Below are positions 18,537 through 39,212 of a DNA stretch of 64,000 bases, one piece after another. The notes beneath the pieces were generated by a model that saw only the letters and a program-made list of their open reading frames with translations, made no database searches and was not told the DNA's origin. The DNA comes from Acidimicrobiia bacterium (GTDB lineage: Bacteria; Actinomycetota; Acidimicrobiia; Spongiisociales; UBA5794), in the NCBI GenBank assembly GCA_026985095.1, contig JALSQW010000023.1, positions 62,001 through 126,000 of the forward strand, given 5' to 3'. Position 1 is the stretch's first letter, and each line of letters opens with the position of its first letter. The position numbers and the translations under genes are program-made.

Positions 18537-19389
18537 GGCAGGGGCGAGGAAGGCGGGCCTGGGCCGAGGTTTGGATGCGTTGATCCCCACCGATCTCCCG
18601 GTGGCCGGGTTCGCCGAGATCCCGGTGGCGTCGGTTCGGCCCAACCCCCGTCAACCCCGCCGGACCTTCGACGATGCGGCATTGGAGGAACTCGCCGCAT
18701 CCATCTCCGCCGTCGGGGTGTTGCAGCCCATCGTCGTCAGGGACGCCGGCGACGGGGCCTACGAGCTGGTGGCCGGCGAGCGCCGTCTCCGGGCGACGGC
18801 CTTGGCAGGCAACGCGACGATCCCGGCGATCATCCGCGGGGAGTCCGACGACGAGACGTCTCTCACGCAGGCCCTGATCGAGAACGTCCAACGGGAGGAC
18901 CTGTCCCCTCTGGAGGAAGCCGCCGCCTATCGCCAGCTTCTGGAAGATTTTGGTATGACCCACGAGGAGGTCGCCAACCAGGTCGGGAAGAGCCGCAGCG
19001 CGGTCACCAACACGCTCCGGCTGCTCCAGCTCCCAGGGCCGGTGCAGGCGATGGTCGATGACGGGACCCTGAGCGCCGGGCACGCCAGGGCGCTCCTGGG
19101 GCTCGACGACGTCGCCTACACGATCCATATCGCCGAGCGAGCAGCGACCGAGGGGTGGTCGGTCCGACAGACCGAAGACGCGGTGCGGATGCGCAAGGCG
19201 AGTGAGGGCAAGCGGACCCGCCGGGAGCCGGCGGTGAGACCAGCGGCGATCATCGAGCTCGAGTCGAAACTGGCCGAACATCTGGGGACGAAGGTCGCCA
19301 TCGACTACCGAGGCAGGGGCGGCAAGCTGGTGGTCCGCTTCTCCTCCCTCGACGATCTCGAGCGGATCTACCGACTCTTCTATCGCTGA
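18520..19389 (+). CDS. parB: Chromosome partitioning protein ParB
   Basis: A 289-residue ParB, the CTP-dependent clamp that loads at parS. The N-terminal CTPase domain has VRPNPRQPRRTF and the GERR motif (residues 86-89); the helix-turn-helix lies around 130-165 (THEEVANQVGKSRSAVTNTLRLL). The C-terminal dimerisation domain ends LVVRFSSLDDLERIYRLF. Its stop lies within the last codons of the converging CwlM-like gene, a 10-base tail-to-tail overlap. Confidence 0.96.
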   Translation: MTRQRKAGARKAGLGRGLDALIPTDLPVAGFAEIPVASVRPNPRQPRRTFDDAALEELAASISAVGVLQPIVVRDAGDGAYELVAGERRLRATALAGNATIPAIIRGESDDETSLTQALIENVQREDLSPLEEAAAYRQLLEDFGMTHEEVANQVGKSRSAVTNTLRLLQLPGPVQAMVDDGTLSAGHARALLGLDDVAYTIHIAERAATEGWSVRQTEDAVRMRKASEGKRTRREPAVRPAAIIELESKLAEHLGTKVAIDYRGRGGKLVVRFSSLDDLERIYRLFYR

Positions 19390-20369
19390 TCTCGAGATGA
19401 CCCCTCGCGCCGCTGAGCCGGCGGCGTCTCGTGGAACCGGACGAGGGCACGGCCGGTGAGGATCCCCGTCGTTCCGTCGGGTTCGGGCACGGCGACCACG
19501 ATGGCCGGTGAGCGGGTCTCCTTGAGGATGGGGGTGGCGCGTCCACCGACCGGGAGGGACAGCTCGGCGGCCACGGCGCCGGCCAGGGAGCGCCCGGCTT
19601 CGGAGGCACTGCGTTCGGAGGCGAAGGAGTAGACCCCCGGTCGGGGCTCGGCGACGAAGGACACCACCAAGGTGGCGTCGAGACGGTTGGCGCGACGCGC
19701 CCGCAGACGTTCGGTCGGTCGGGTGTCGATGCTGCGCGACAGGAGCGGGTAGGCCCCTCGCTCGGCGACGAAGCGGACGAGACCCAAGGCCGCGCGCCAG
19801 GTACTGGCAGATTCTTCCTCATCGGAGCACGCGGCATCCACGTAGATGCGGCTGCCGACGATCGTCGGTGGCAGGGTGTCGATCCACTCCCGCTCGCGGA
19901 CGACCTCCCGGCCCGGCTTGTCGGTGGCCCGCCGCATGAGGGCCAACTCGGATGCGACGGCCGGGCCGGCGATGCCGTCCTCGGGCATCCGCCGGTTGTG
20001 CTGGAAATCCAACAGCGCTCGCAACGTGTCGTCACCGAAGATGCCATCGACCTTGCCCGCGTCGAACCCGAGGGCATTGAGTCGGCGCTGGAGCTCGGCG
20101 ACGTCATCGCCTCGCATCATCGGGATCCGCCGGTACAGCAGCCGATCACCGAGCGAGAAGCCGGCGTCGACGAGCGATCGCCAGGTGTCGGGACCGACGA
20201 TGCCATCGACCGGGAGCCCCTTCTTGCGTTGGAACGAGCGGACCGCAGCTTCCGTGGCGTCGCCGAAGAGCCCGACCTCGTCGTCGCCCGTCGGGTGCCC
20301 GAGGGCGGCGAGTCGATCCTGGATGTCGCGCACCGGTTCGCCGCGATCGCCGCGGTGGAAGAGCCTCAC
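19380..20369 (-). CDS. cwlM: CwlM-like protein with degenerate amidase domain
   Basis: A 329-residue protein with two peptidoglycan-binding domains (about 1-68 and 77-140, each with the FGDxT...F pattern) and a C-terminal Amidase_3-like domain (about 165-320). Position and architecture match mycobacterial CwlM, a cytoplasmic regulator of MurA. The amidase zinc ligands are not visible: the usual DPGHGG is replaced by VDAACSDEE and the SxHxN motif by SFVAE. GTG before RLFHRGDRGEPV is chosen because the family begins there; an upstream GTG 18 bases earlier is possible. It follows trxA in the same direction. Confidence 0.78.
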   Translation of the reverse strand: MRLFHRGDRGEPVRDIQDRLAALGHPTGDDEVGLFGDATEAAVRSFQRKKGLPVDGIVGPDTWRSLVDAGFSLGDRLLYRRIPMMRGDDVAELQRRLNALGFDAGKVDGIFGDDTLRALLDFQHNRRMPEDGIAGPAVASELALMRRATDKPGREVVREREWIDTLPPTIVGSRIYVDAACSDEEESASTWRAALGLVRFVAERGAYPLLSRSIDTRPTERLRARRANRLDATLVVSFVAEPRPGVYSFASERSASEAGRSLAGAVAAELSLPVGGRATPILKETRSPAIVVAVPEPDGTTGILTGRALVRFHETPPAQRREGSSRDQR

Positions 20370-20466
20370 GCTCCCATGGTCCCACACGTGGTGCCGAAGC
20401 GGCGATCGTCGGGGCTTCGCGCCTGCACCGACATCCAGGATCGACCGCGCGGCGACGCTTCTGGTC

Positions 20467-20793
20467 TCAGCGGAGGAAGTCGGCGAGCTCCGTCTCGAGC
20501 TGTGCCTTCGAGCGGGCACCGACCAGACGCTTGACCTCCTGACCGTCCTGGAACACGATCAAGGTCGGGATGCTCATCACGCCGTACTGCATGGCGGTCG
20601 CCTGGTTCTCATCGACGTTGAGCTTCACCACCTTGAGCTTCCCGGCCTTCTCGGCGGCCAGTTCCTCGAGCGGGCGATCCATCATCTTGCATGGTCCACA
20701 CCACTCGGCCCAGAAGTCGACGAGCGACGGAGTGGAATCGGCGACGATCTGGCTGAACGTGGCGTCGTCGGCGGTGACGGTGTTGGCGGACAT
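20467..20793 (-). CDS. trxA: Thioredoxin
   Basis: A 108-residue thioredoxin with the active site WCGPC (about residues 31-35) and the cis-proline in MSIPTLIVF. It reduces protein disulfides and is itself reduced by the neighbouring TrxB. An AGGAGGAACC ribosome site directly before ATG fixes the start. The gene lies 49 bases downstream of trxB. Confidence 0.96.
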   Translation of the reverse strand: MSANTVTADDATFSQIVADSTPSLVDFWAEWCGPCKMMDRPLEELAAEKAGKLKVVKLNVDENQATAMQYGVMSIPTLIVFQDGQEVKRLVGARSKAQLETELADFLR

Positions 20794-20842: not shown

Positions 20843-21769
20843 TCAGGTCTGCTCGTCCAACCATCGCTCCGCATCGATCGCGGCCTGGCAGCCCATGCCG
20901 GCGGCGGTGACGGCTTGACGGTACGTGTGGTCGACCACATCCCCGGCGGCGAACACCCCCTCGACCGACGTTCGAGTCCCCTCGTGCACGACGATGTAGC
21001 CGGCATCGTCGAGGTCGAGCTGGTCGCCGAAGACACTCGTATTGGGGGTGTGGCCGATGGCCAGGAACAGGCCGTCGACGGCGAACTCGGTCTCCTCGCC
21101 CGTCTTGACGTTCTCCAGACGCAGTCCGGTGACCTCCTTGTCGCCGAGGACTTCCTGGACGGTCGTGTCCCAGATGACCTCGATCTTGGGATGGTCGAGG
21201 GCCCGGTGGGTCATGATCTTCGATGCCCGGAACTCGTCTCGACGATGGATGATCGTTACCTTCGAAGCGAACTTGGTGAGGAACAGGGCCTCCTCCATGG
21301 CGCTGTCACCGCCACCGACGACCGCCAGTTCCTTGTCCCGGAAGAAGAAACCGTCGCAGGTCGCGCACGCCGACACGCCGTAGCCACGGAGGCGTTCCTC
21401 GCCGGGCACGCCGAGCCACCGAGCGGACGCCCCCGTGGAGACGATCACGGACTCGGCGTGATAGAGGTCGTCGTTGACCCACACCTTGAACGGGTAGGCG
21501 CCGAAGTCGACCTGCGTGACGTCGGACGACACGATGCGGGTGCCGAACCGCTCGGCCTGCTTGCGCATGTTGTCCATCAGCTCGGGGCCCATGATGCCGT
21601 CGGGGAAGCCAGGGTAGTTCTCGACGTCGGTGGTCAACATGAGCTGGCCGCCGCGTTCCATGCCTTCGATCATCAAGGGGGCGAGATCCGCTCGGGCGGC
21701 GTAGATCGCTGCGGTGAGCCCGGCAGGGCCCGATCCGACGATGAGCACCTTCTCACACGAGTCCGTCAT
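20843..21769 (-). CDS. trxB: Thioredoxin reductase
   Basis: A 308-residue FAD- and NADPH-dependent thioredoxin reductase. The FAD motif is VGSGPAGLTAAIYAARA near the N-terminus, the redox-active cysteines are in SACATCDGFF (about residue 135), the NADPH motif is VVGGGDSAMEEA, and the C-terminal FAD motif is GVFAAGDVVDHTYRQAVTAA. An AGGAG ribosome site precedes ATG. It is in one run with the holin-like, sigma and anti-sigma genes. Confidence 0.97.
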   Translation of the reverse strand: MTDSCEKVLIVGSGPAGLTAAIYAARADLAPLMIEGMERGGQLMLTTDVENYPGFPDGIMGPELMDNMRKQAERFGTRIVSSDVTQVDFGAYPFKVWVNDDLYHAESVIVSTGASARWLGVPGEERLRGYGVSACATCDGFFFRDKELAVVGGGDSAMEEALFLTKFASKVTIIHRRDEFRASKIMTHRALDHPKIEVIWDTTVQEVLGDKEVTGLRLENVKTGEETEFAVDGLFLAIGHTPNTSVFGDQLDLDDAGYIVVHEGTRTSVEGVFAAGDVVDHTYRQAVTAAGMGCQAAIDAERWLDEQT

Positions 21770-22096: not shown

Positions 22097-22930
22097 TCAA
22101 GGGCCCGTGACGGAGCAGTCGCTCAGGTCGAGGGTGACGAGGCGTCCGGTTCCCACGATCTCGAGGAGGACCGTGTCGCCGCCGGCGGCGATCGGGGTGA
22201 CCGAGATCGGCGAGCCGACAGCGTCGGCGAGCGCGGCCAAGCAGGCTTCCAGGTCGGCGCGGGCGATCGCGACGTCGAGGCCGGTCTCGCCGACCTCGAC
22301 GGTCGTGGCGCCGTCCTGCTGGAGCGCGGAGAGCCGTTCGGTCGACAGGACCGGCACGACGTAGGTGTCGAGGGTCGGTTCGAGGGTGACCGGCTCGGCT
22401 TCTGCCCGGGCCCCGGTGGTCGTGGTGGCCGCCGTATCGCCCGACGAGAGCGTTTCGGGTGCGGCTTCGCTCATCTCGACGCCGCCGGCGGCGCTGTCGG
22501 CGGCTCGGTCCTCCGCCCCCTGGAACTCCTGGGTCGATGTGGTGGCGGTGACGACGACCTGGGCGAGGTCCTCGCTGGAACCACCCCCCGTGCCGCCGAT
22601 GGCGACGAACGCCACGGCCACCGCGGCGACGCCGACGGCAGGAACGAGCCAGCGGATCCATCCCGGACCGGTGCGCCGGGCCGGTTGGGCCGCTGGAGGC
22701 CGATCGAAGCCGAGGTGGGTGCGGAGGGCCGATCGTAGTTCCGACCGTTCGGCGGCCGTCATGCGAGCGGGTTCGGTGGCGGCGAGGGCCGTCAGGGCTC
22801 GACGTTGCAGGTCGAGCTCGGCGGCCAGTTCGGGATCGGCGGCGAGGAGGGCTTCGGCTTCGGCGCGTTCGGGCCCCGTGAGCCGGCCCTCGGCCAGCGC
22901 GAGGATGAGGTCGAGGTGCTGTTCGTTCAT
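22097..22930 (-). CDS. Anti-sigma factor, membrane-anchored
   Basis: A 277-residue protein starting within the stop of the sigma gene (ATGA), the usual arrangement of a cognate anti-sigma factor. The N-terminal cytoplasmic part (about 1-88) has LALAEGRLTGPERAEAEALLAADPELAAEL, the helical pattern of anti-sigma domains, but no HxxxCxxC zinc motif. One membrane helix lies at about 90-112, and the exterior part is Ser/Thr/Glu-rich with a globular end. In mycobacteria RsmA occupies this place. Confidence 0.8.
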   Translation of the reverse strand: MNEQHLDLILALAEGRLTGPERAEAEALLAADPELAAELDLQRRALTALAATEPARMTAAERSELRSALRTHLGFDRPPAAQPARRTGPGWIRWLVPAVGVAAVAVAFVAIGGTGGGSSEDLAQVVVTATTSTQEFQGAEDRAADSAAGGVEMSEAAPETLSSGDTAATTTTGARAEAEPVTLEPTLDTYVVPVLSTERLSALQQDGATTVEVGETGLDVAIARADLEACLAALADAVGSPISVTPIAAGGDTVLLEIVGTGRLVTLDLSDCSVTGP

Positions 22931-23502
22931 GGTGTGCCTCTTGGATGCTCCGAACCGTCGCGGAGGTTCCCGAGGATCTCGGCGAGCCGTCTCCTGGCCC
23001 GGAAGAGCCGGCTCTTCACGGTTCCGGTCGGAACCTCGAGGATCTCGGCGGCCTGCTCGAGGGCGAGGCCCTCCATGTCGACGAGGACGATGGGGGCGCG
23101 GAACTCGGGGGAGAGCTCGGCGAGGGCGTCCTCGATGCTCGGTCGAAGATCGGCGGAAGCGAACCCTGCCTCCGCCGTGACGTCCACCGGATCGTGGTGT
23201 TCGGGGAGCGGGTCTGCTCGCCGGCGCTTCTGCTTGCGGAGGTGGTCGTAGCAGGTGTTCATCGCGACCCGGTGGAGCCAGGTGGAGAACGCGGCTTCGG
23301 CCTTGTAGCGATCCGCCTTGCGGAAGACGGTGAGGAACGTGTCCTGGGTGGCGTCGAGGGCGGCGTCACGGTCACGGAGCATGCGGAGACAGATCCCGAA
23401 GACCCGGTCCTCGTGCGCGGCCATCAGCTCGTCGAACGCGGCGACATCTCCGGTGAGGTACCTGGAGATGAGCTCGACGTCCTGGGCGGCGCGGTAGGTC
23501 AC
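22927..23502 (-). CDS. ECF RNA polymerase sigma factor, SigM-like
   Basis: A 191-residue ECF sigma factor. Region 2 includes HEDRVFGICLRMLRDRDAALDATQDTFLTVFRK and the segment AFSTWLHRVAMNTCYDHLRKQ; region 4 includes VDMEGLALEQAAEILEVPTGTVKSRLFRARR. GTG at 23502 is preferred because it lies just after the upstream gene; an earlier ATG would overlap that gene by 68 bases. Neighbouring trxB, trxA and CwlM-like genes match the mycobacterial sigM locus, whose regulon is linked to envelope and redox functions. Confidence 0.87.
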   Translation of the reverse strand: MTYRAAQDVELISRYLTGDVAAFDELMAAHEDRVFGICLRMLRDRDAALDATQDTFLTVFRKADRYKAEAAFSTWLHRVAMNTCYDHLRKQKRRRADPLPEHHDPVDVTAEAGFASADLRPSIEDALAELSPEFRAPIVLVDMEGLALEQAAEILEVPTGTVKSRLFRARRRLAEILGNLRDGSEHPRGTP

Positions 23503-23521: not shown

Positions 23522-24808
23522 TCAGCCCGTGAAGCGAGCTTCGGCGATCGTGGTGGAGTATCCGCCACGATCGTCGGGGGGGAGATCACGGAACCACAAC
23601 AGCCAGACGCCGCCTTCCCGGTCGGGGAGACCGATGGTGGTCGTTCCCGGCAGCAGGATGCCGGTGGCGACGTTCTGCCATGCCTCGGGGTCGTCGGGTC
23701 GATCGTCGGACCAGCCGATGCGGTAGGCCGTGCCGCCGGTGCCGGTCACGAGGAGGCGGGTGGGGCTGCCATCGACCTCGAGTGTGAGGCCGACGCCGTT
23801 CTTGATCTCCCGGAGCGGTCGCGAGTACGACTCGGTGGTCCACACGGTGTCGGGGTCTCCGTCCACGACGTTGCCGACGAGGTCATCGAGCTCGGTGCCA
23901 TCACCCAACGGGTCGTACACCGAGGGCCGGGACGGGAGGGTCACGCGTTGGACGACCTCGAGGTCACGGGTTCCGGCCGGCACCGATGGGGTGGGGGTCG
24001 GTTCGGCTTCCACCGGGTAGAGGAAGGGGGCGTTCGAGCGATCGCCGATCGCCAAGCCGGCCGCCGCGGTGGCGATGATCGTCATGGCGACGATCGCGAA
24101 GGCCACGCTCCACCGGATCATGCCGGTGGAGCGGTCACGGTCGTGGCCGGCGGTGAAGGGGATGCCGCGAAGGCCGGCGGCCAGTTGGGCCGCGTCCAGT
24201 TCGCCGCGTTCGGCTCGGTCGAGCACATCATCGAGGGTGGCGGGGAGACCCTCGACGACGTGGGAGGGTCGAACCGACGCTTCGGGGGTGCCGGTGACGG
24301 CCTCGCGCAGGACGCGGGCGAGGTCCCTCGTGTCGGTGTCGCGGGGCTCGGGGGTCCGTCCGAAACCGCCGAGTTTCGCCGGATGGGCGCGGGAGAAATG
24401 GATCGTCGAGGCGTCGATGGCGCCATGGATACCGCCGGCCGCGTGGAACGTCGCGAGACCATCGGCGAGACCCGCGGCGTTGGGGAGGAACTCCTCGACA
24501 GGGAGCGTTTCACCGGCGGCGAGTCGATCCGAGATGGAGACCGCCCCGTCCCATTCGCACGCGGCGTACGTGCCGTTGCCGTCGCTCCCGGCGGCGTAGA
24601 CCTTCTGCACATGCTGGTGCGTCGTGGCCGCCGCTGCCCGGACCGGGGCGAGGAAGGTTTCGATCCGTTCGGGGGATGCATCGGGCGGGAGGAAGCGGAT
24701 GAGGACGGGTCGGTCGAGTTGCTCGTCGGTGGCGAGCCATTCCTCGACGTCTCGGTCACGGCCGAGGCGAACGTTGAGGGAGTAGCGGTCGGGGAGGCGA
24801 GGGGGCAT
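23522..24808 (-). CDS. Pseudokinase-TM-discoidin-like envelope protein
   Basis: A 428-residue protein with three parts: a cytoplasmic protein-kinase-like domain (about 1-215), one membrane helix (about 230-252) and an exterior domain resembling F5/8 type C (discoidin) modules (about 290-428, with NVVDGDPDTVWTT). The kinase is inactive by sequence: HGAID stands where HRDLK is expected and GGFG where DFG is expected. Mycobacterial MviN carries this same arrangement fused behind its lipid II flippase; here the flippase part is missing. It starts 21 bases after the acetyltransferase gene. Confidence 0.78.
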   Translation of the reverse strand: MPPRLPDRYSLNVRLGRDRDVEEWLATDEQLDRPVLIRFLPPDASPERIETFLAPVRAAAATTHQHVQKVYAAGSDGNGTYAACEWDGAVSISDRLAAGETLPVEEFLPNAAGLADGLATFHAAGGIHGAIDASTIHFSRAHPAKLGGFGRTPEPRDTDTRDLARVLREAVTGTPEASVRPSHVVEGLPATLDDVLDRAERGELDAAQLAAGLRGIPFTAGHDRDRSTGMIRWSVAFAIVAMTIIATAAAGLAIGDRSNAPFLYPVEAEPTPTPSVPAGTRDLEVVQRVTLPSRPSVYDPLGDGTELDDLVGNVVDGDPDTVWTTESYSRPLREIKNGVGLTLEVDGSPTRLLVTGTGGTAYRIGWSDDRPDDPEAWQNVATGILLPGTTTIGLPDREGGVWLLWFRDLPPDDRGGYSTTIAEARFTG

Positions 24809-24829: not shown

Positions 24830-25564
24830 TCAGCCGAACCGTAGGACGGTCAGGGGCTCGGGGAGGGTCACGTACCCCTCCGACACGTACAGGCCGATCG
24901 CGGCCCGGTTGTCGAGTTGGGTGTTCAGCAGGAGGGCCTTGGCACCTTGGGTGCGAGCGTTGCGGGCGGCGGCGCGTACCAGCGAGCGACCCATGCCGTT
25001 GCCTTGCCACGCGGGATCCACGGCGACCCGTTGGAGGTAGGAGATGGCATGGCCGTACCCGACGACGGCGTAGGCGATCGGCCGGGTCTCGTTGCCCCTG
25101 ATGATGAGGACCTTCGTCTTGGCCGTGGCCCCGATGGCTTCGCCGAGCCCGTGCTCGTCGAACCGCCAGAAGTCGGGGAAGGCGGCCCGGTCGATGGCGA
25201 GCAGCGGCTCGAGGTCGGAGGGATCGCCTTCGACGACGAGATGGTCGGGGCTGGGTGGCGGCCCGGTGAGGTCGAGACGCATCAACGCGAGGGACAGGTG
25301 GTCGACGTAGCCGACGGCGGTCCACGGCCGTTTCGCCGACTGCGGCAGCGGGGGAGACAGGATGGCGGGGGCGCCGACGGCGAGGAGCCGTTCCGTGCAT
25401 GCCTGCAGGAAGCCGGACCCGCCGCGGACGATGCGGAGGGACGCGTCGTCGACGACGTCGTTCCAGGGTCGGGCTTCTGCCCGGGCCCAGCCCCGGCGAA
25501 GTGTGAGTGGTCCTGGCCATGTTCCACGCTGGAACACTGGGAGGGGGCTCTCTGCGAGCGCCAT
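24830..25564 (-). CDS. GNAT family N-acetyltransferase
   Basis: A 244-residue protein with a C-terminal GNAT domain (about 130-244). The acetyl-CoA loop is VAVDPAWQGNGMGRSLVRAA, followed by LLNTQLDNRAAIGLYVSEGY. The N-terminal half is weakly recognisable. The ATG at 25564 is chosen over one 33 bases upstream because GAGGAG stands 9 bases before it and a TACGCT -10 overlaps the upstream ATG. The substrate is unknown. It heads the leftward cell-wall/redox gene run. Confidence 0.8.
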   Translation of the reverse strand: MALAESPLPVFQRGTWPGPLTLRRGWARAEARPWNDVVDDASLRIVRGGSGFLQACTERLLAVGAPAILSPPLPQSAKRPWTAVGYVDHLSLALMRLDLTGPPPSPDHLVVEGDPSDLEPLLAIDRAAFPDFWRFDEHGLGEAIGATAKTKVLIIRGNETRPIAYAVVGYGHAISYLQRVAVDPAWQGNGMGRSLVRAAARNARTQGAKALLLNTQLDNRAAIGLYVSEGYVTLPEPLTVLRFG

Positions 25565-25596
25565 GGTGCTTGCTCCTCGACTCCGAGCGCCCGCCA

Positions 25597-25602
25597 AGCG
25601 TA
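25597..25602 (-). promoter_or_regulatory. -10 box of the acetyltransferase-to-cwlM run
   Basis: The minus strand reads TACGCT (TAnnnT), about 33 bases before the GNAT start codon, leaving a short leader that includes the GAGGAG ribosome site. No good -35 was found. It would be the promoter of the leftward run through trxA. Confidence 0.35.
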
Positions 25603-31164: not shown

Positions 31165-31326
31165 CTACCGGGTGTCGTCCTCCGTCGCGGCGCGGTCGTT
31201 CCCGTCGTCGCTGCTCGCCCGCTTCTCCAGATAGCGGACACCGGCGAGGGCGAGGACGATCGGGACGACGAACAACCCGATCTCGTCCCATCCGTACTGG
31301 TGGGCGATGATCCACGATGCCTCCAT
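31165..31326 (-). CDS. Small single-pass membrane protein
   Basis: A 53-residue open frame beginning MEASWIIAHQYGWDEIG, with one hydrophobic helix at about residues 16-34 and an acidic, charged C-terminus (SDDGNDRAATEDDTR). The composition is typical of a real small membrane protein. It precedes the acyl-CoA dehydrogenase by 25 bases on the same strand. No family is recognised; no clear ribosome site is seen. Confidence 0.5.
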   Translation of the reverse strand: MEASWIIAHQYGWDEIGLFVVPIVLALAGVRYLEKRASSDDGNDRAATEDDTR

Positions 31327-31340
31327 GGTGTGAGCTTGGA

Positions 31341-31370
31341 CCGGCCGGCCTTCTCGCGCAAACCGGCCGG
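31341..31370. repeat. CCGGCCGG paired repeat
   Basis: Two copies of the self-palindromic octamer CCGGCCGG (31341-31348 and 31363-31370) are separated by 14 bases. They could pair as a hairpin or act as repeated half sites. They lie between the small membrane-protein gene and the divergent giant surface-protein gene. Confidence 0.35.
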
Positions 31371-31391
31371 AGGAGGAGGGCCCGTGCCGAG

Positions 31392-31406
31392 CCGACACCG
31401 TGTCGG
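31392..31406. promoter_or_regulatory. 15-base palindrome upstream of surface-protein gene
   Basis: CCGACAC and GTGTCGG flank one central C, giving perfect 7-base arms, about 90 bases before the start codon of the giant surface protein. It is a plausible operator or hairpin in a 170-base intergenic region where no clear sigma-70 promoter was found. Confidence 0.4.
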
Positions 31407-31496
31407 AACCGGTCAAGCTCCCGGCGGCCGGTGCCGATAGCGGAAGGGACCGGATGGGCCCGACCGGGCCGAACGAGTGTGAAGGAAGACGGATCG

Positions 31497-34400
31497 ATGA
31501 AGCGCGCGCTGATCGCCGGCCTGGCGATGACGATCGCGGTCGCCGGTATGGCGATCCTCCCCGAGACCCATGCCGAAGCGGCGGGAACACCCGACATCTC
31601 CCTGTCGGTGGACGTCCCCGGCGAAACCCTCTACGGGGCGACCACGCCGGTGTCGCTGACGGTGACGAACGCGACGGCGACCAACGGCTACAACCTGTCG
31701 TTCCGGGCGGTGCTGCCGCCGGGGCTGACGGCCAGCGGGTTCTCCACGGCACCGACGAGGACGCTCACGAACCAGCCCGGAGCGGGCCAGACGACGCTCA
31801 TCTGGGAGAACGTGGCCGACTCGATCGCCGGGACGACGGTCGCGGTGTCCTTCTCGGCGACCCACGCCACCGGCACCTACGACGTCGGCAACTCGATCAC
31901 GATCGACGCCTCCGCCTACGTCAACACCGATCCCCGGACGGTCCCGGACTTCGACCCGACGACGGGTGTCGCCACCGGCGACTACACCGGTTGGGACACC
32001 GCTTCGGGATCCACGACGCTGATCCCCTTCGAGGTCACCAAGACCGAGCCGAACACCGAAGCCGAGCTGCTGCGCGGCGTGCACGACCACCAGACGCTGT
32101 ACACGATCGTGGTGCAGAACAACTACGTGAACCCGACGGCATCGTTCCTGGTCGAGGACTGGATCCCCGCTGGGCTCGAGTTCCTGTCCTGCGGCACCGC
32201 CGACAACTCGACGACAGAGGAGTACCCGGGCGCGGGCCCGTTGAACCCCGGCAACGCCCCGGCGATCCCGTCGGGCACCCGCGAGGGCTGCGTCGATCCG
32301 ACCTCGGTCGATACGGTCACGGTCGACCCCGACGGCGCCGGTCCGCTCCCCAACGCCGTCTACACACACGTCACGTGGACGGCAGCCACGTTGGCGGCGG
32401 CCTTCGGGACCGACACCCTCGCCGCCGGGCAGACCTTCACGTTGCACTACGTCGCCGGCATCCCGCGGTTCGCCAACACGACGACATGGCCGGCGGGGGC
32501 GCCGGCGGCGGCGTCGGGCCTGCAGGCCGCGAACCTCGACAACAACACCGGCCCGTCGACCGCAGAGACCGGGACCGAACAGTCGCTGACGAACCTGGCG
32601 CGCGCCACCGGCGACTACGACTCGCGAGGCACCTTCTCCACCGACGGCGACACGATGACCGTGACCGCCGAGGACGTCTCGATCCACAAGTCGGTCTCCG
32701 ACACCACGATCGGCCAAGGCGACGTCGACACCTGGACCCTGCTCGTCGAGACGTCCGAGTACGTCGACAACCCGGCGATCGGGGCGACGAACGCCAACGC
32801 GATCGTCGTCACCGACACCGTCCCCGACGGGCTCTGTCCCCTCGGCGCGGGCAGCCCCGACGCCGAATGTCAGGATCCGGCATCGCCCAGCCATCCGTAC
32901 ACGTCGGCCACCGAGAACGCCGACGGGACCTGGACCCTGGTCTGGGACTTCGATTCGATCGCGGGCCTGGGCTCGATGAGCCGCTCCGACAGTCGCACGA
33001 TCACGTTCCCGACCAAGGTCCGGCAGTTCTATCAGGAGAACGGGGCCGACGACACGCCGGTCCTGGCCGAGGACTCGTGGGAGAACACGGTGACGCTCAC
33101 CGCGGTCGCCGACGGACGGAACGTGGCCGACGACTCGTCGGCGGGCCAGAGCGCCGGGCCGGTGGCCATCTCCAAGGAGGTGTCGGTCCCCGGGGCGGCC
33201 CCGTACGCCTGCGGTGACGGCAGCGCCATCGCCTGGGACCCGACGCAGGCGGGACCGTACGGTCCGGGGGATCGGGTCTGTTGGCGTCTCACCGTCACCT
33301 ACCCGGGCGCGTTGGACACGGGTGGCTCGTCGATCGTCGACTTCCTCCCTGCGGGCTTCACCTACGAGTCCTACACGCTGGGGGTGAACAACACGGTCCC
33401 GGCGGGCGACGTCACCTTCGACGGCACCGGTGCGGCCGACGGACGGCTGGCCTGGTCGGTCGGAGCGTCCGGGTACGTCGATACGGCCCAGACACTGGAG
33501 TTGATCGTCTCGTCGACCATCACGGACGCCACCGCGGCGTCGTCGGCCGACCTGCCGCAGAACCTCATGAAGTTCACGTTCACGAACACCTCCGGTGACG
33601 TCTTCCAGCTCCGCGACGACGCAGACGCGTTGTGGGCCGAACCGGAGCTCACGCTCCTCAAGGGGGTCAGGGACGTCAACGACGGTGCCGTCAACGGTCC
33701 GGACGTCGACGGTGTCCAGATCGTCGAGGGCGACACCGTCACCTACCGCATCGACGTCACGAACACGGGAACCCGGGACGCGCTCGACGTGGTCCTGTGG
33801 GACGTGCTCCCCGCCGACTTCGACTGTTCGATGGTGTCGAACATCTCCGACGCCGGCGCATGCAACGCGACGCCGGATCCCGATCGCCTGGAGTGGCCGA
33901 CGACGGGCATCGATGTCGCAGCCGGCACGAGCCGCACCCTCACGTACGACGTGACGGTCCCGGTCGGGACCGGCGCCTCGGGCGAGACGTTCATCAATCG
34001 TTCGGGGGTGGTCCGGTACGAGTCGGACGCCAACACCGGCGTCGGCGACCGCTTCGTGTACGTGCCGGCCGGGAACATCGACTCCGGCGCCCCGGCTGCG
34101 AACACGGCCGCCGCCGACGACACGTCGAGCGTCTTCACCGCCGACGCCACGATCGCCAAGACCCGCAGCACCGGGATCACCGAGACCGGCAACGCCGCCG
34201 CCGACGAGGCCACCATCGGCGAGGTCGTCTCCTACACGGTGACGGCGGTCATCCCCGAGGGCACGACCGTGCATGCGGCCACGATCACCGACGTCGTCGA
34301 TACCGCCCGCCTCACCTATCTGAACGATGCCACGGCGACGCTGAACGGCGGGCTGCTGCCGGTCGGGTTCTTCCTCTCGGACGCCGGAGGAGCGATCACG

Positions 34401-37400
34401 CTGACGTTCCCCGACCCGTACACGAACGCGGCGGGGTCGGGTGACGACACCTTCGCCATCACCTTCTCGGCCCGGGTGTCGGACGTAGGGGGCAACGTCC
34501 GTTCGACGACGATCCCCAATACGGCGACCCTCCGCTGGGAGAGCGCCTCGGGCACCGTTCACACGAAGTCCTCCTCTGCCAGCACGAGGGTCGTCGAGCC
34601 GAACCTGACGGTCTCCAAGGCCTCGTCGGTCACCAACGTGCTGCCGGGCCAGATCGTCGACTACACGGTGACGGTCGCCAACCAGAACGGCGCCGACGTG
34701 TCCCCGGCCCACGAGGTGGTCGCGGTCGACACCCTCCCCGCGGACCTGTCGCCGGTGGACGGGGGCGGAACGCTCGTCCCCGACGGCGGCGCGGTCCCGC
34801 CCAGCGGAGGGATCTGGGACCTGACGACCCGCACCATCACCTGGACCCAGGCCGAGGTCGCCGGCCTCGGCACCATCGATCCGGGTTCGACGGTGGGGAT
34901 CACCTACCAGGCCAAGGTGGCCGATTCGATCGTCACCAACGGCACGATGACCAACGACGTCGCGGTCACCGGCTCGTCCCTGTCGGGAACACCGACGGGC
35001 GAACGCGACGCGACCTCGCCCAACGGCGGTCCCGGAAGCGGCTACCAGGCGACGGACTCCAACACCGTGATCGCACCTCGCTCGTCGATCACCAAGTCGG
35101 TGGATCCGACCTCGGCGACCATCGGCGAGCCGATCCGCTACACCGTCGACGTGACGCTGCCCGCCAACGTCATCCAGTACGACGTGACCGTCATCGATCA
35201 GCTCCCGACCGGGATCCAGGTCCTGTCACCGGGCTACACCGTCTCCACGTCGTGTCAGGCGGCCGGGGGTGGGGCGTGCTCGCCGGACGTCACCGGCATC
35301 ACCGAGCTGACACCCACCGGCGGTGACGTGGGATGGTTCCTGGGTGACCTGACGACCCCGTCGGCGGACGATCGGGTCGTGACGATCGTGTTCGACGCGT
35401 ACGTCGACGACGCGGCTCCGGCGGTGTCGGGGGCGACGCTGACGAACTCGGTGAACGTCTACGGCAACCAGACCGACAAGCTGGGGACGATCACGGTCGT
35501 GCCCGACACCCCGAACTACGACGTCGTCGGAACTCCGGCGTCGGCGGGCGAGGGCATCGTCGAACCGCACATGACGATCGCCAAGCGGGTCCTCGACGGC
35601 GCCACCCCGGTGGTGTCCCGCCGGGCGCTGCCGGGTGAGACGCTGACGTACCAGGTGACGTTGACGAACACCGGCACGTCGGACGCGTACGACCTGACGA
35701 TCACCGACACCCCCGACGCCCGTCTCCTCAACGCGGTCGTCGTGGACGGTACGTCGAACGGCGTGGCGTACACGGTCACCGACGGCGACCTGACCGACGG
35801 CACGCTGTCGTGGTCGATCGCCGGACCGATCGCTCCCGGCGGCGACGTGGTCATCACCTACACGGCGGACGTGTGGCCGGCGGTGGTCGGCGACGAGATC
35901 GTCGCCGGACCCGAGATCGTCAACACGGCGGACGTCCCGTCGTACTGGGGCGTTCCCGAGGCGACCCGGACGGCCAACCCGCAGTACCCGTACCGGAACT
36001 ACGACGACGTCACGCCGTCGACGGCGAACGTGGAGCTGGACCTGGCGTCGATCGGTGACACCGTCTGGTTCGACGTCGACGCCGACGGTGTCATCGACGC
36101 CGGTGAACCGCGCCTCGGCGGTGTCGACGTGACCGTCACCTACCTCGGTCCCGACGGGGTCCTCGGCGGAGGGGACGATGAGGTGCATGTGACCACGACC
36201 GCTGCCGACGGAACGTACCTGGTCGACCGGCTCCCGGGTGGGAGCTACCAGGTCGTCGTCGATGCCGCCGATCTTCCCTCAGGGCTGACCCCCTCGTACG
36301 ACCTCGACGGCGGCACGACCTCGCCCGACGGGGTCTGGCTCGGGTCCCTGGCCCAGGACGGCGTCGAACGGGACGTCGACTTCGGCTACACCGGGACCGG
36401 GTCCCTGGGCGACCGGGTGTGGTTCGACCGTGACGGCGACGGGGTTCTCGACGCCGACGAGCCGGGCATCGGTGGGGTCGACCTGACGGTCGTCTACGCC
36501 GGCTTCGACGGGGTGACGGGCACCGGCGACGACGTGACCTATGCGGTGACGACGGCCGCCGACGGCACCTGGGGTGTGCCGGATCTGCCGGCAGGCGACT
36601 ACACGACGACGGTGAACCCCGCGACCTTGCCCACCGGCATGAGCGCCACCTACGACCTGGACGGCGGCACGGCGACGCCCGATGGGGTGGCGCCGGCGAC
36701 GTTGGCGGCCGGTCAGGACCGATCCGACGTCGACTTCGGCTACCGGGGCTCGAGCTCGATCGGCGACACCGTCTGGCTCGACGCCGATCTCGACGGGGTG
36801 CAGGATCCGGGGGAGACGGGCATCGGTGGCGTCGCTGTGATCCTCACCTGGCCCGGACCCGATGGCGTCCTCGGCAACGGCGACGATGTGACCTTCACCG
36901 ACACCACCGACGCCGCGGGGCTCTACGGGTTCGGGGGGCTCAACCCCGGCGACTATCGGGTGACGGTCGACACGGCGACCGTACCGGCCGGGTTGATCGC
37001 GACCTTCGACGAGAACGGCGGTCTCGATGACACGACCGTCGTGTCCCTGCCGGATGCGACGGACCATCTCACCGCCGACTTCGGGTACGGCGGGTCGGGC
37101 TCGATCGGTGATCGGGTGTGGTGGGACACCGACGGCGACGGCGTCGACGACGTCGGCGAGCCGGGGATCCAGGGCGTCGAGGTCCGCCTGACGTGGTACG
37201 GGCCCGACGGGATCGTCGGCACCGCCGACGACGTGGTCCAGACGCGGTTCACCGATGGTTCGGGCAGCTACCTGTTCGTCAACCTGCCGGCGGGTGATTT
37301 CGACGTCGACGTGGTGGGCGCGTTGCCCGGTGTCGCTGCCCCGACGTCGGAGCGGGACGCCACCTTGGACGGTTCGACGACGGTCACCTTGGCCACGGGT

Positions 37401-39212
37401 CAGGTCGTCATCGACGCCGACTTCGGCTACACGGGCGACAACACGGTCGGTGACCTCGTCTGGTTCGATCGCGACGGTGATGGTCTGCTCCAGGCAGGCG
37501 AGCCGGGCATCGCCGGTGTGACGCTCACCGTCACCTGGACGGGTCTCGACGGGACCTTCGGGACGGGTGACGACCTCATCTTCCCGGCGACCACCGACGC
37601 TGCCGGCGCCTATCTGGTCGAACGGCTTCCCGACGGCGACGTCCGGGTCGACGTCACCGGCGGTGTGCCGAGCGGGATGGCCCAGACCTTCGATGAGGAC
37701 GGGGGCAACGACGCCACCTCGTCGATCGTGGGGTTGTCGGGCGGAGCCACCCACCTCACCGCCGACTTCGGGTACACGGGGACGGGATCGCTCGGCGACA
37801 CGATCTGGTGGGACCTCGACGGCGACGGCGTCCAGGACGCCGGCGAGCCGGGCTTCCCCGGCGTCGACGTGACGGTCACATGGGCCGGTCCGGACGGTAC
37901 GTTCGGCACCGGCGACGACGTGGCGACGGCGACCACCACTGCAGCCGGGGGCACCTACCTCGTCGAGCGGCTGGCGGCCGGCGCCTACCGAGTGGACGTG
38001 GACCGGGCCGACCTACCGGCCGACGTGGTGGCGACGGCCGATCCCGACGGCGGGTCGGACGACACGGCGACCGCCGCCCTCTCGGCAGGTGAGACGAACC
38101 TGATCCAGGACTTCGGCTACCGAGGTTCGGCCTCGCTGGGCGATCGGATCTGGTTCGACCTCGACGCCGACGGGACGCAGGACGCCGTCGAGCCGGGTGT
38201 GGCAGGGGTCGACCTCACCGTCACCTGGCCAGGTGCCGACGGGACGCTCGGCACCGGCGACGACGTGACCTTCACGGTGACGACCGACGCCGCGGGCCTC
38301 TACGGGGCTGCGGGTCTGGTGGCCGGAACCTATACGGTCCGCCTCGACCCGACCGAGTTGCCGCCGGGGACCGCCGCGTCGGTCGACGTCGACGGCGGCG
38401 ATCCGGCGGTGAGCACGGCGGTGTTGGCGGCCGGTGAGGCGCGGACCGACGTGGACTTCGGTATCGTCGGGAACGCCTCGCTGTCGGGGACCGTGTGGAG
38501 CGACGTCGACGGCGACCAGGTGATCGACGCGGGTGAGTCCGGGGTTCCGCTGGTGACGGTGAACGTCACGTGGCATGGACCGTCCGGCGACGTGGTGCTG
38601 CCGATCGTCTCGGGCGCCGACGGCACCTGGTCGATGCCGAATCTGCCGCCGGGCGACTACACGGTGACGGTGGACGAGTCGACGATCCCCGCCGGAACCG
38701 TGTCGACGACACCGACGAGTCGAGACGTGACGTTGCCGCTGGGCGGCAGCGACGAGGTCGACTTCGGGATCGCCCGTCCGGCGAGCGTCGGGAGCGTGGT
38801 GTGGATCGACGGCGACGGCGACGGGACGATGGACGCCGACGAGGCCGGGATCCCGGGCGTGGTCGTCGAGCTGCTCGACGCCGACGGGGTGGTCGTGGCG
38901 GTGCAGACGACCGATGCTGCCGGCGGGTACCGGTTCGCCGGCGTCGTCCCGGGCACCTATACGGTGCGGGTGGTCGCCTCGACCGTGCCCGCAGGACTCG
39001 TGCAGACCTACGGCAAGGACGGGCTGCTCGACCTGAGCGTCGTCCAGCCACTGGTCGCCGGTGACAACGTGCTCGACGTGAACTTCGGGTTCCAGGAGCA
39101 GGCGCTCCCGAACACCGGTTTCGACGCCGCCCGGCTGATGCTGCTCGGGTTCCTGCTGGCGTTGTTCGGTGCGGCGGCGGTGGTCGTCACCCGGCCTCGC
39201 CGGGAGACGTGA
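31497..39212 (+). CDS. Giant LPXTG-anchored surface protein
   Basis: A 2571-residue exported protein. Residues 1-28 are a signal peptide (basic start, hydrophobic core, cleavage near AEA). Nine DUF11/isopeptide-type beta modules of about 160 residues begin near 33, 177, 394, 555, 717, 882, 1035, 1195 and 1357; most open with a strand carrying a conserved Lys (VTK, ISK, VSK, IAK) suited to an internal isopeptide bond. Nine SdrD_B/Cna-B-like repeats of about 115 residues run from 1518 to 2535 (pattern GDxVWxDxDGDGxxDxGEPG). LPNTG at 2537-2541, a membrane helix and an RPRRET tail form a sortase anchor. A GAAGGA site precedes ATG. No sortase gene is in the window. Likely role: adhesin or stalk. 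Confidence 0.93.
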   Translation: MKRALIAGLAMTIAVAGMAILPETHAEAAGTPDISLSVDVPGETLYGATTPVSLTVTNATATNGYNLSFRAVLPPGLTASGFSTAPTRTLTNQPGAGQTTLIWENVADSIAGTTVAVSFSATHATGTYDVGNSITIDASAYVNTDPRTVPDFDPTTGVATGDYTGWDTASGSTTLIPFEVTKTEPNTEAELLRGVHDHQTLYTIVVQNNYVNPTASFLVEDWIPAGLEFLSCGTADNSTTEEYPGAGPLNPGNAPAIPSGTREGCVDPTSVDTVTVDPDGAGPLPNAVYTHVTWTAATLAAAFGTDTLAAGQTFTLHYVAGIPRFANTTTWPAGAPAAASGLQAANLDNNTGPSTAETGTEQSLTNLARATGDYDSRGTFSTDGDTMTVTAEDVSIHKSVSDTTIGQGDVDTWTLLVETSEYVDNPAIGATNANAIVVTDTVPDGLCPLGAGSPDAECQDPASPSHPYTSATENADGTWTLVWDFDSIAGLGSMSRSDSRTITFPTKVRQFYQENGADDTPVLAEDSWENTVTLTAVADGRNVADDSSAGQSAGPVAISKEVSVPGAAPYACGDGSAIAWDPTQAGPYGPGDRVCWRLTVTYPGALDTGGSSIVDFLPAGFTYESYTLGVNNTVPAGDVTFDGTGAADGRLAWSVGASGYVDTAQTLELIVSSTITDATAASSADLPQNLMKFTFTNTSGDVFQLRDDADALWAEPELTLLKGVRDVNDGAVNGPDVDGVQIVEGDTVTYRIDVTNTGTRDALDVVLWDVLPADFDCSMVSNISDAGACNATPDPDRLEWPTTGIDVAAGTSRTLTYDVTVPVGTGASGETFINRSGVVRYESDANTGVGDRFVYVPAGNIDSGAPAANTAAADDTSSVFTADATIAKTRSTGITETGNAAADEATIGEVVSYTVTAVIPEGTTVHAATITDVVDTARLTYLNDATATLNGGLLPVGFFLSDAGGAITLTFPDPYTNAAGSGDDTFAITFSARVSDVGGNVRSTTIPNTATLRWESASGTVHTKSSSASTRVVEPNLTVSKASSVTNVLPGQIVDYTVTVANQNGADVSPAHEVVAVDTLPADLSPVDGGGTLVPDGGAVPPSGGIWDLTTRTITWTQAEVAGLGTIDPGSTVGITYQAKVADSIVTNGTMTNDVAVTGSSLSGTPTGERDATSPNGGPGSGYQATDSNTVIAPRSSITKSVDPTSATIGEPIRYTVDVTLPANVIQYDVTVIDQLPTGIQVLSPGYTVSTSCQAAGGGACSPDVTGITELTPTGGDVGWFLGDLTTPSADDRVVTIVFDAYVDDAAPAVSGATLTNSVNVYGNQTDKLGTITVVPDTPNYDVVGTPASAGEGIVEPHMTIAKRVLDGATPVVSRRALPGETLTYQVTLTNTGTSDAYDLTITDTPDARLLNAVVVDGTSNGVAYTVTDGDLTDGTLSWSIAGPIAPGGDVVITYTADVWPAVVGDEIVAGPEIVNTADVPSYWGVPEATRTANPQYPYRNYDDVTPSTANVELDLASIGDTVWFDVDADGVIDAGEPRLGGVDVTVTYLGPDGVLGGGDDEVHVTTTAADGTYLVDRLPGGSYQVVVDAADLPSGLTPSYDLDGGTTSPDGVWLGSLAQDGVERDVDFGYTGTGSLGDRVWFDRDGDGVLDADEPGIGGVDLTVVYAGFDGVTGTGDDVTYAVTTAADGTWGVPDLPAGDYTTTVNPATLPTGMSATYDLDGGTATPDGVAPATLAAGQDRSDVDFGYRGSSSIGDTVWLDADLDGVQDPGETGIGGVAVILTWPGPDGVLGNGDDVTFTDTTDAAGLYGFGGLNPGDYRVTVDTATVPAGLIATFDENGGLDDTTVVSLPDATDHLTADFGYGGSGSIGDRVWWDTDGDGVDDVGEPGIQGVEVRLTWYGPDGIVGTADDVVQTRFTDGSGSYLFVNLPAGDFDVDVVGALPGVAAPTSERDATLDGSTTVTLATGQVVIDADFGYTGDNTVGDLVWFDRDGDGLLQAGEPGIAGVTLTVTWTGLDGTFGTGDDLIFPATTDAAGAYLVERLPDGDVRVDVTGGVPSGMAQTFDEDGGNDATSSIVGLSGGATHLTADFGYTGTGSLGDTIWWDLDGDGVQDAGEPGFPGVDVTVTWAGPDGTFGTGDDVATATTTAAGGTYLVERLAAGAYRVDVDRADLPADVVATADPDGGSDDTATAALSAGETNLIQDFGYRGSASLGDRIWFDLDADGTQDAVEPGVAGVDLTVTWPGADGTLGTGDDVTFTVTTDAAGLYGAAGLVAGTYTVRLDPTELPPGTAASVDVDGGDPAVSTAVLAAGEARTDVDFGIVGNASLSGTVWSDVDGDQVIDAGESGVPLVTVNVTWHGPSGDVVLPIVSGADGTWSMPNLPPGDYTVTVDESTIPAGTVSTTPTSRDVTLPLGGSDEVDFGIARPASVGSVVWIDGDGDGTMDADEAGIPGVVVELLDADGVVVAVQTTDAAGGYRFAGVVPGTYTVRVVASTVPAGLVQTYGKDGLLDLSVVQPLVAGDNVLDVNFGFQEQALPNTGFDAARLMLLGFLLALFGAAAVVVTRPRRET
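36048..39102 (+). repeat. Nine tandem SdrD_B-like coding repeats
   Basis: Units start near 36048, 36401, 36756, 37101, 37441, 37788, 38131, 38477 and 38784, a period of about 345 bases except for the shorter last two. Each encodes a GDxVW strand, a DxDGDGxxD calcium-like loop and an ending DFGY or DFGI. Copies share protein motifs but differ at many bases, so the array is old and not a recent slippage product. Confidence 0.88.

Follow-up and report, generated by a model that had tools for sequence, protein, structure and literature searches.

The pseudokinase of MviN is among the best-studied bacterial pseudokinases, and it is dispensable in mycobacteria. MviN of Mycobacterium tuberculosis (Rv3910) is a MurJ fusion, and the family to which its pseudokinase belongs, ActPs3, has been described (PMC12599244) as having all canonical catalytic motifs degraded, a deletion in the activation loop, dimer contacts at L750 and D793, and a common pseudokinase descent; other ActPs3 members are said to lack a carbohydrate-binding domain (PMC12599244). 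In mycobacteria, PknB phosphorylates the tail of MviN, to which FhaA then binds (PMC10166564, PMC6180346). The legend to S6 Fig of PMC10166564 also records, for Actinobacteria, that an unextended mviN can be followed by a separate gene labelled 'protein kinase family protein'. As far as that legend describes it, this gene occupies the same place as the one analysed here and probably belongs to the same orthologue group, although murJ is not adjacent in the order to which our genome belongs.

The window analysed here, a stretch of 64,000 nucleotides from an Acidimicrobiia genome, carries a stand-alone gene (23522–24808, minus strand) for a protein of 428 aa that resembles MviN in its pseudokinase fold, its transmembrane (TM) helix, its CBM-like exterior domain and its sigM-trxB-cwlM neighbourhood. 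Unlike MviN, the protein is unfused and has no murJ nearby, its family has no conserved juxtamembrane Thr, and its degenerate motifs differ. The family shares with ActPs3 the degradation of all canonical catalytic motifs and the activation-loop deletion; the equivalent of L750 is kept in all 35 orthologues of the order, whereas that of D793 is lost in 34 of them.

A receptor pseudokinase at the sigM locus

The gene begins 21 bases past its conserved upstream neighbour, a GNAT acetyltransferase gene (24830–25597, minus strand), and its stop lies about 19 bases ahead of the likely start, at 23502, of a gene for a SigM-type ECF sigma factor (22927–23502, minus strand; the longest ORF starts at 23589). 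Beyond sigM follow a putative anti-sigma factor (22097–22930, minus strand), assigned from a weak NCBIfam match, and two further conserved neighbours on the same strand, trxB (20843–21769) and a gene for a CwlM-like protein with two PG-binding domains (19380–20519). The arrangement of CCA transferase, GNAT acetyltransferase, pseudokinase, sigM, anti-sigma factor, trxB, trxA and cwlM, with parB, parA and rsmG convergent on the other strand after cwlM, is preserved from the CCA transferase to rsmG across the window's order, and we take it to match the mycobacterial mviN-sigM region. Among order-mates, 23 genomes of seven families carry orthologues of near-constant length and identical start (one is clipped by a contig end). 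In the CwlM-like protein, a Pfam scan detected two PG_binding_1 domains and no Amidase_3 domain; the amidase motifs appear degenerate in the window and, by eye, in sister families.

The single protein gave weak matches to Pfam PF07714 (E 1.5e-4, below the cut-off) and to PknB (2.4e-4), whereas a profile of the 35-sequence family matched PknB strongly (5.6e-20). The AlphaFold model of the protein (mean pLDDT 89.1, pTM 0.61) places a kinase-fold domain at residues 1–222 (24143–24808, minus strand), of which residues 1–219 superpose on the intracellular domain of Rv3910 (3uqc_C; Z 21.2, rmsd 3.1, 217 aligned, 18% identity) and on PknB (Z 21.8, 30% identity). PknB shares this fold, but it is catalytic, and on the outside it has PASTA repeats where the window's protein has a CBM32 domain. 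A helix at residues 227–253 (24050–24130, minus strand) is hydrophobic and compatible with a single TM segment. The exterior domain, residues 289–428 (23525–23944, minus strand), gave only weak profile matches to CBM32 (E 0.013) before it was modelled by itself (pLDDT 95.4); the separate model is predicted to adopt the discoidin/CBM32 (F5/8 type C) beta-sandwich fold, with the best match to the CBM32 of AlyQ (Z 14.6, 118 aligned, rmsd 2.3). Domains of this fold also bind ligands other than carbohydrate. A sequence-only reading had taken the gene for a separate pseudokinase-TM-discoidin homologue of the regulatory half of MviN at the sigM locus, lacking HRD and DFG and without its MurJ half, and had pointed to structure prediction as a check; the ORF, the domain folds, the motif alignment and the locus bear it out on each of these counts.

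The Lys, HRD and DFG residues that serve ATP/Mg binding and catalysis in PknB-type Ser/Thr kinases are missing from the family. Across the 35 orthologues of the order, the beta3 Lys is replaced by Arg in every sequence, 34 have lost the HRD Asp, and all 35 lack the catalytic Asn and the DFG Asp. The APE segment, which all 19 sister kinases have, is deleted throughout (35/35). No catalytic residue that was checked survives in more than one of the 35. Judged from these residues, the protein is a dead kinase.

In sister Acidimicrobiia families, a separate gene at the same locus encodes an intact PknB-type receptor kinase (L058–L077), mostly about 490–680 aa in length, with VAIK, HRD and DFG intact, a TM helix and the same CBM32-like exterior domain (L070 stops short of the latter); the 19 aligned sister kinases all keep the Lys, alphaC Glu, HRD, Asn, DFG and APE positions. 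The usual sister arrangement is GNAT, DUF6049, murJ, degV, kinase and sigM, whereas the loci of the window's order lack both murJ and the DUF6049 gene and keep degV in some families. The comparison gives good support to an ancestor of the gene that was a murJ-linked TM receptor kinase, with a PknB-type kinase, one TM helix and a CBM32-like exterior domain, and to a loss of catalysis in the window's order, with the kinase left unimpaired in the class's sister families. With an intact kinase as the orthologue in those families, the gene does not represent a relic broken off MviN. This history of the gene is well supported, and from it and from the candidate partners we infer a mechanism. As one explanation of the locus, we favour a dead receptor kinase lineage, a replaced MurJ and a non-catalytic membrane scaffold acting in trans, which we regard as somewhat more probable than not.

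Candidate partners of the pseudokinase

One canonical Pkinase gene was detected in the genome, a PASTA PknB gene beside a PBP gene, and an FhaA gene lies about 5 kb away. Most order-mates have one or two Pkinase genes, and most sister families, except f12, have more. With PknB, FhaA and the CwlM-like protein all encoded in the genome, MviN-like action in trans is conceivable, in which PknB phosphorylates the juxtamembrane tail, FhaA is recruited, and MurJ and wall synthesis are restrained. The mycobacterial precedent (PMC10166564, PMC6180346) and the match of the model to 3oun_B (Z 20.5), the Rv3910 domain in its crystal structure with FhaA, speak for it. However, no conserved Thr column was found in the juxtamembrane stretch of the 35 orthologues, ten of which have no Thr there at all, making a phospho-Thr/FhaA route unlikely as a conserved function, and the MurJ of the genome is of a different lineage and lies at another locus. 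We consider such action unlikely here, and the FhaA phospho-docking of MviN, which the sequence-only reading cited, cannot simply be transferred to this protein.

By alignment, the invariant Arg8 and Leu31 of the pseudokinase are the equivalents of PknB Arg10 and Leu33, which presumably belong, with Asp76, to the back-to-back dimer face of PknB. The equivalent of Asp76 is lost in 34 of the 35 orthologues, and the loss of this dimer contact would weaken a simple back-to-back dimer. Most likely, the protein serves PknB as a membrane scaffold or allosteric partner that has no catalysis of its own. In the mechanism that we propose, the exterior domain would bind a putative cell-wall glycan or precursor, and the pseudokinase, on the cytoplasmic side, would use the N-lobe face that holds Arg8 and Leu31 to bind PknB or its wall-control partners (FhaA, CwlM). 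Wall status could then tune PknB signalling without phosphotransfer by the pseudokinase, which would act in trans and not as a part of MurJ.

Replacement of the neighbouring flippase

No murJ was found near the pseudokinase at any of the 98 loci of the order, some of which represent one genome under two identifiers, compared with 15 of 15 sister loci that have one. The sole convincing MurJ of the genome (541 aa) is encoded on contig 63 (G000:C63:90441-92066) and carries no kinase domain, let alone a pseudokinase of its own. A second PF03023 match, on contig 56 (33 bits), was rejected as MurJ; its sequence reads as a MATE-type transporter.

The MurJs of the order form one clade (support 100) to which the class's sigM-locus MurJs do not belong, and forcing the two together was rejected (AU p 5.7e-5). 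With wider sampling, the order's MurJ joins four MurJs of the Actinomarina-type family f12 (support 100) within a clade of other classes, and the other MurJs of Acidimicrobiia, with the Mycobacteriales-like and Streptomyces-like ones, fall on the opposite side of the tree; the nearest matches to a profile of the order's MurJ outside the order likewise fall in other classes. Since the MurJ on the other contig belongs to a different lineage, the original was replaced and not simply moved. A replacement of the original neighbouring flippase by a MurJ of another lineage, which Actinomarina-type genomes share, is well supported by these sequence comparisons, although a long-branch artefact is possible given the very long stem of the order's MurJ clade (2.04). 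That stem is also what would be expected if the sigM-locus flippase gene had been relocated to a different contig and had evolved rapidly there, with no change of lineage, and the genome has only the one convincing MurJ to account for. The rejected constraint, the supported clade with other classes and the profile matches all go against such a move, which we hold to be quite improbable; the sequence-only reading had offered it as one of two alternatives, and this half of its proposal finds no support.

The order UBA5794, within which f_ZC4RG35 falls, is the sister of Ca. Actinomarinales (PMC12008989); the window's order is probably UBA5794, and the replacement would then predate the split between the two. 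Its source could be either an old paralogue or horizontal transfer. We had at first expected the order's MurJ to correspond to the second MurJ paralogue of other families of the class, but those copies are too divergent to place; two of them were long branches in a MurJ tree and were then excluded. A very divergent second MurJ copy is present in several sister families (L090–L094). The replacement murJ (L078 8442-10067, G000:C63) has ABC-transporter-like genes next to it, and f1, f2 and f8 share this conserved neighbourhood.

Descent of the receptor and loss of catalysis across the phylum

A profile of the exterior domain matched 172 of 396 sampled genomes of the phylum, in which the state of the gene was read from the fetched ORFs, with doubtful ORFs judged by eye. 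In the presumably Mycobacteriales family f54 (ORFs of 1219–1501 aa), the gene is MurJ-fused and a pseudokinase in 6/6; a separate pseudokinase with adjoining murJ is found in f49 (Streptomyces-like), f58, f61, f37, f38, f41, f44 and f67, and in f81 a separate pseudokinase without a detected adjacent murJ. Many other families have a separate intact kinase. The fusion was seen only in f54, and separate genes for MurJ and a kinase or pseudokinase occur across the phylum, which fits the other alternative raised from the sequence, that the fusion arose later in mycobacteria. The remark on carbohydrate-binding domains in ActPs3 (PMC12599244) needs qualifying, since the genomes with a homologous exterior domain include several families with separate pseudokinases.

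Supported groups mix intact and dead neighbours (f55; f64 with f67), which makes more than one loss of catalysis in Actinomycetota probable. The exterior-domain trees, at 149 columns, are too short to resolve the count of losses: a single origin of all pseudokinases was not rejected (AU p 0.095), and a clade of the order's gene with the class, f11 left out, was fully compatible (AU p 0.51), so that neither the common pseudokinase descent of ActPs3 nor descent with the class is rejected. A quick tree of kinase plus exterior domain was kept out of the counting, as it contains the columns of the trait itself.

Synteny, class membership and the compatible AU test point to an independent loss of catalysis in the order. 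Alternatively, the pseudokinase could have been acquired already dead from an Actinomycetes lineage, and the exterior domain of the order does group weakly with the Mycobacteriales-like pseudokinases of f54 (support 83, not starred). However, the gene sits at the same locus position as the sister kinases and can form a clade with those of its class, the kinase-domain alignment score of the order against f54 (92) is the lowest of all groups (others 113–125), and identity in the structural alignments is higher to PknB than to Rv3910. On this evidence, acquisition of a dead kinase is distinctly improbable, and we retain loss within the order's own lineage.

Against a relative that is 92% identical, dN/dS is 0.098 over residues 1–274 and 0.094 over the kinase domain (NG86, one sequence pair), and 33 columns are invariant among the 35 sequences of the order. 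A dN/dS of about 0.1 in this one pair indicates that the order's pseudokinase is under purifying selection. In family f2 of the same order, the pseudokinase gene is lost from between the GNAT gene and sigM in 6/6 genomes (L138–L143), from which it follows that the gene is dispensable. The loss in f2 and the disappearance of every catalytic motif might suggest a decaying kinase leftover with no remaining function, but this is hardly credible beside the near-constant ORF length in seven families, the invariant columns, the low dN/dS and the fixed replacement of the beta3 Lys by Arg.

With apparently active orthologues in sister lineages and a dead version kept without its flippase, issues that are tangled in the fused protein can be taken apart: whether MurJ is a target of the pseudokinase in the first place, which signal its exterior domain senses, and by what route a kinase becomes a scaffold. 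In a non-exhaustive search of the open-access literature, we found no account of orthologues that combine an intact kinase with the exterior domain, of catalysis being lost repeatedly, or of an order in which the dead receptor persists although its flippase has been replaced. In a broader and more tentative proposal, which we put at somewhat less than an even chance, the tail of MviN goes back to a free-standing, active receptor kinase that sensed glycan and was encoded next to murJ, catalysis was lost repeatedly in Actinomycetota, and the dead receptor of this order outlived its flippase and now senses glycan for PknB, the sole canonical kinase detected, by allostery alone.

Two public MAG records titled Acidobacteria (L222, L270) carry the locus of the window's order and look misnamed. 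Elsewhere in the window, the gene at 31317–39212 (plus strand) encodes a repetitive protein of 2631 residues with, by eye, an LPNTG-like motif at its end, a probable wall-anchored surface protein.
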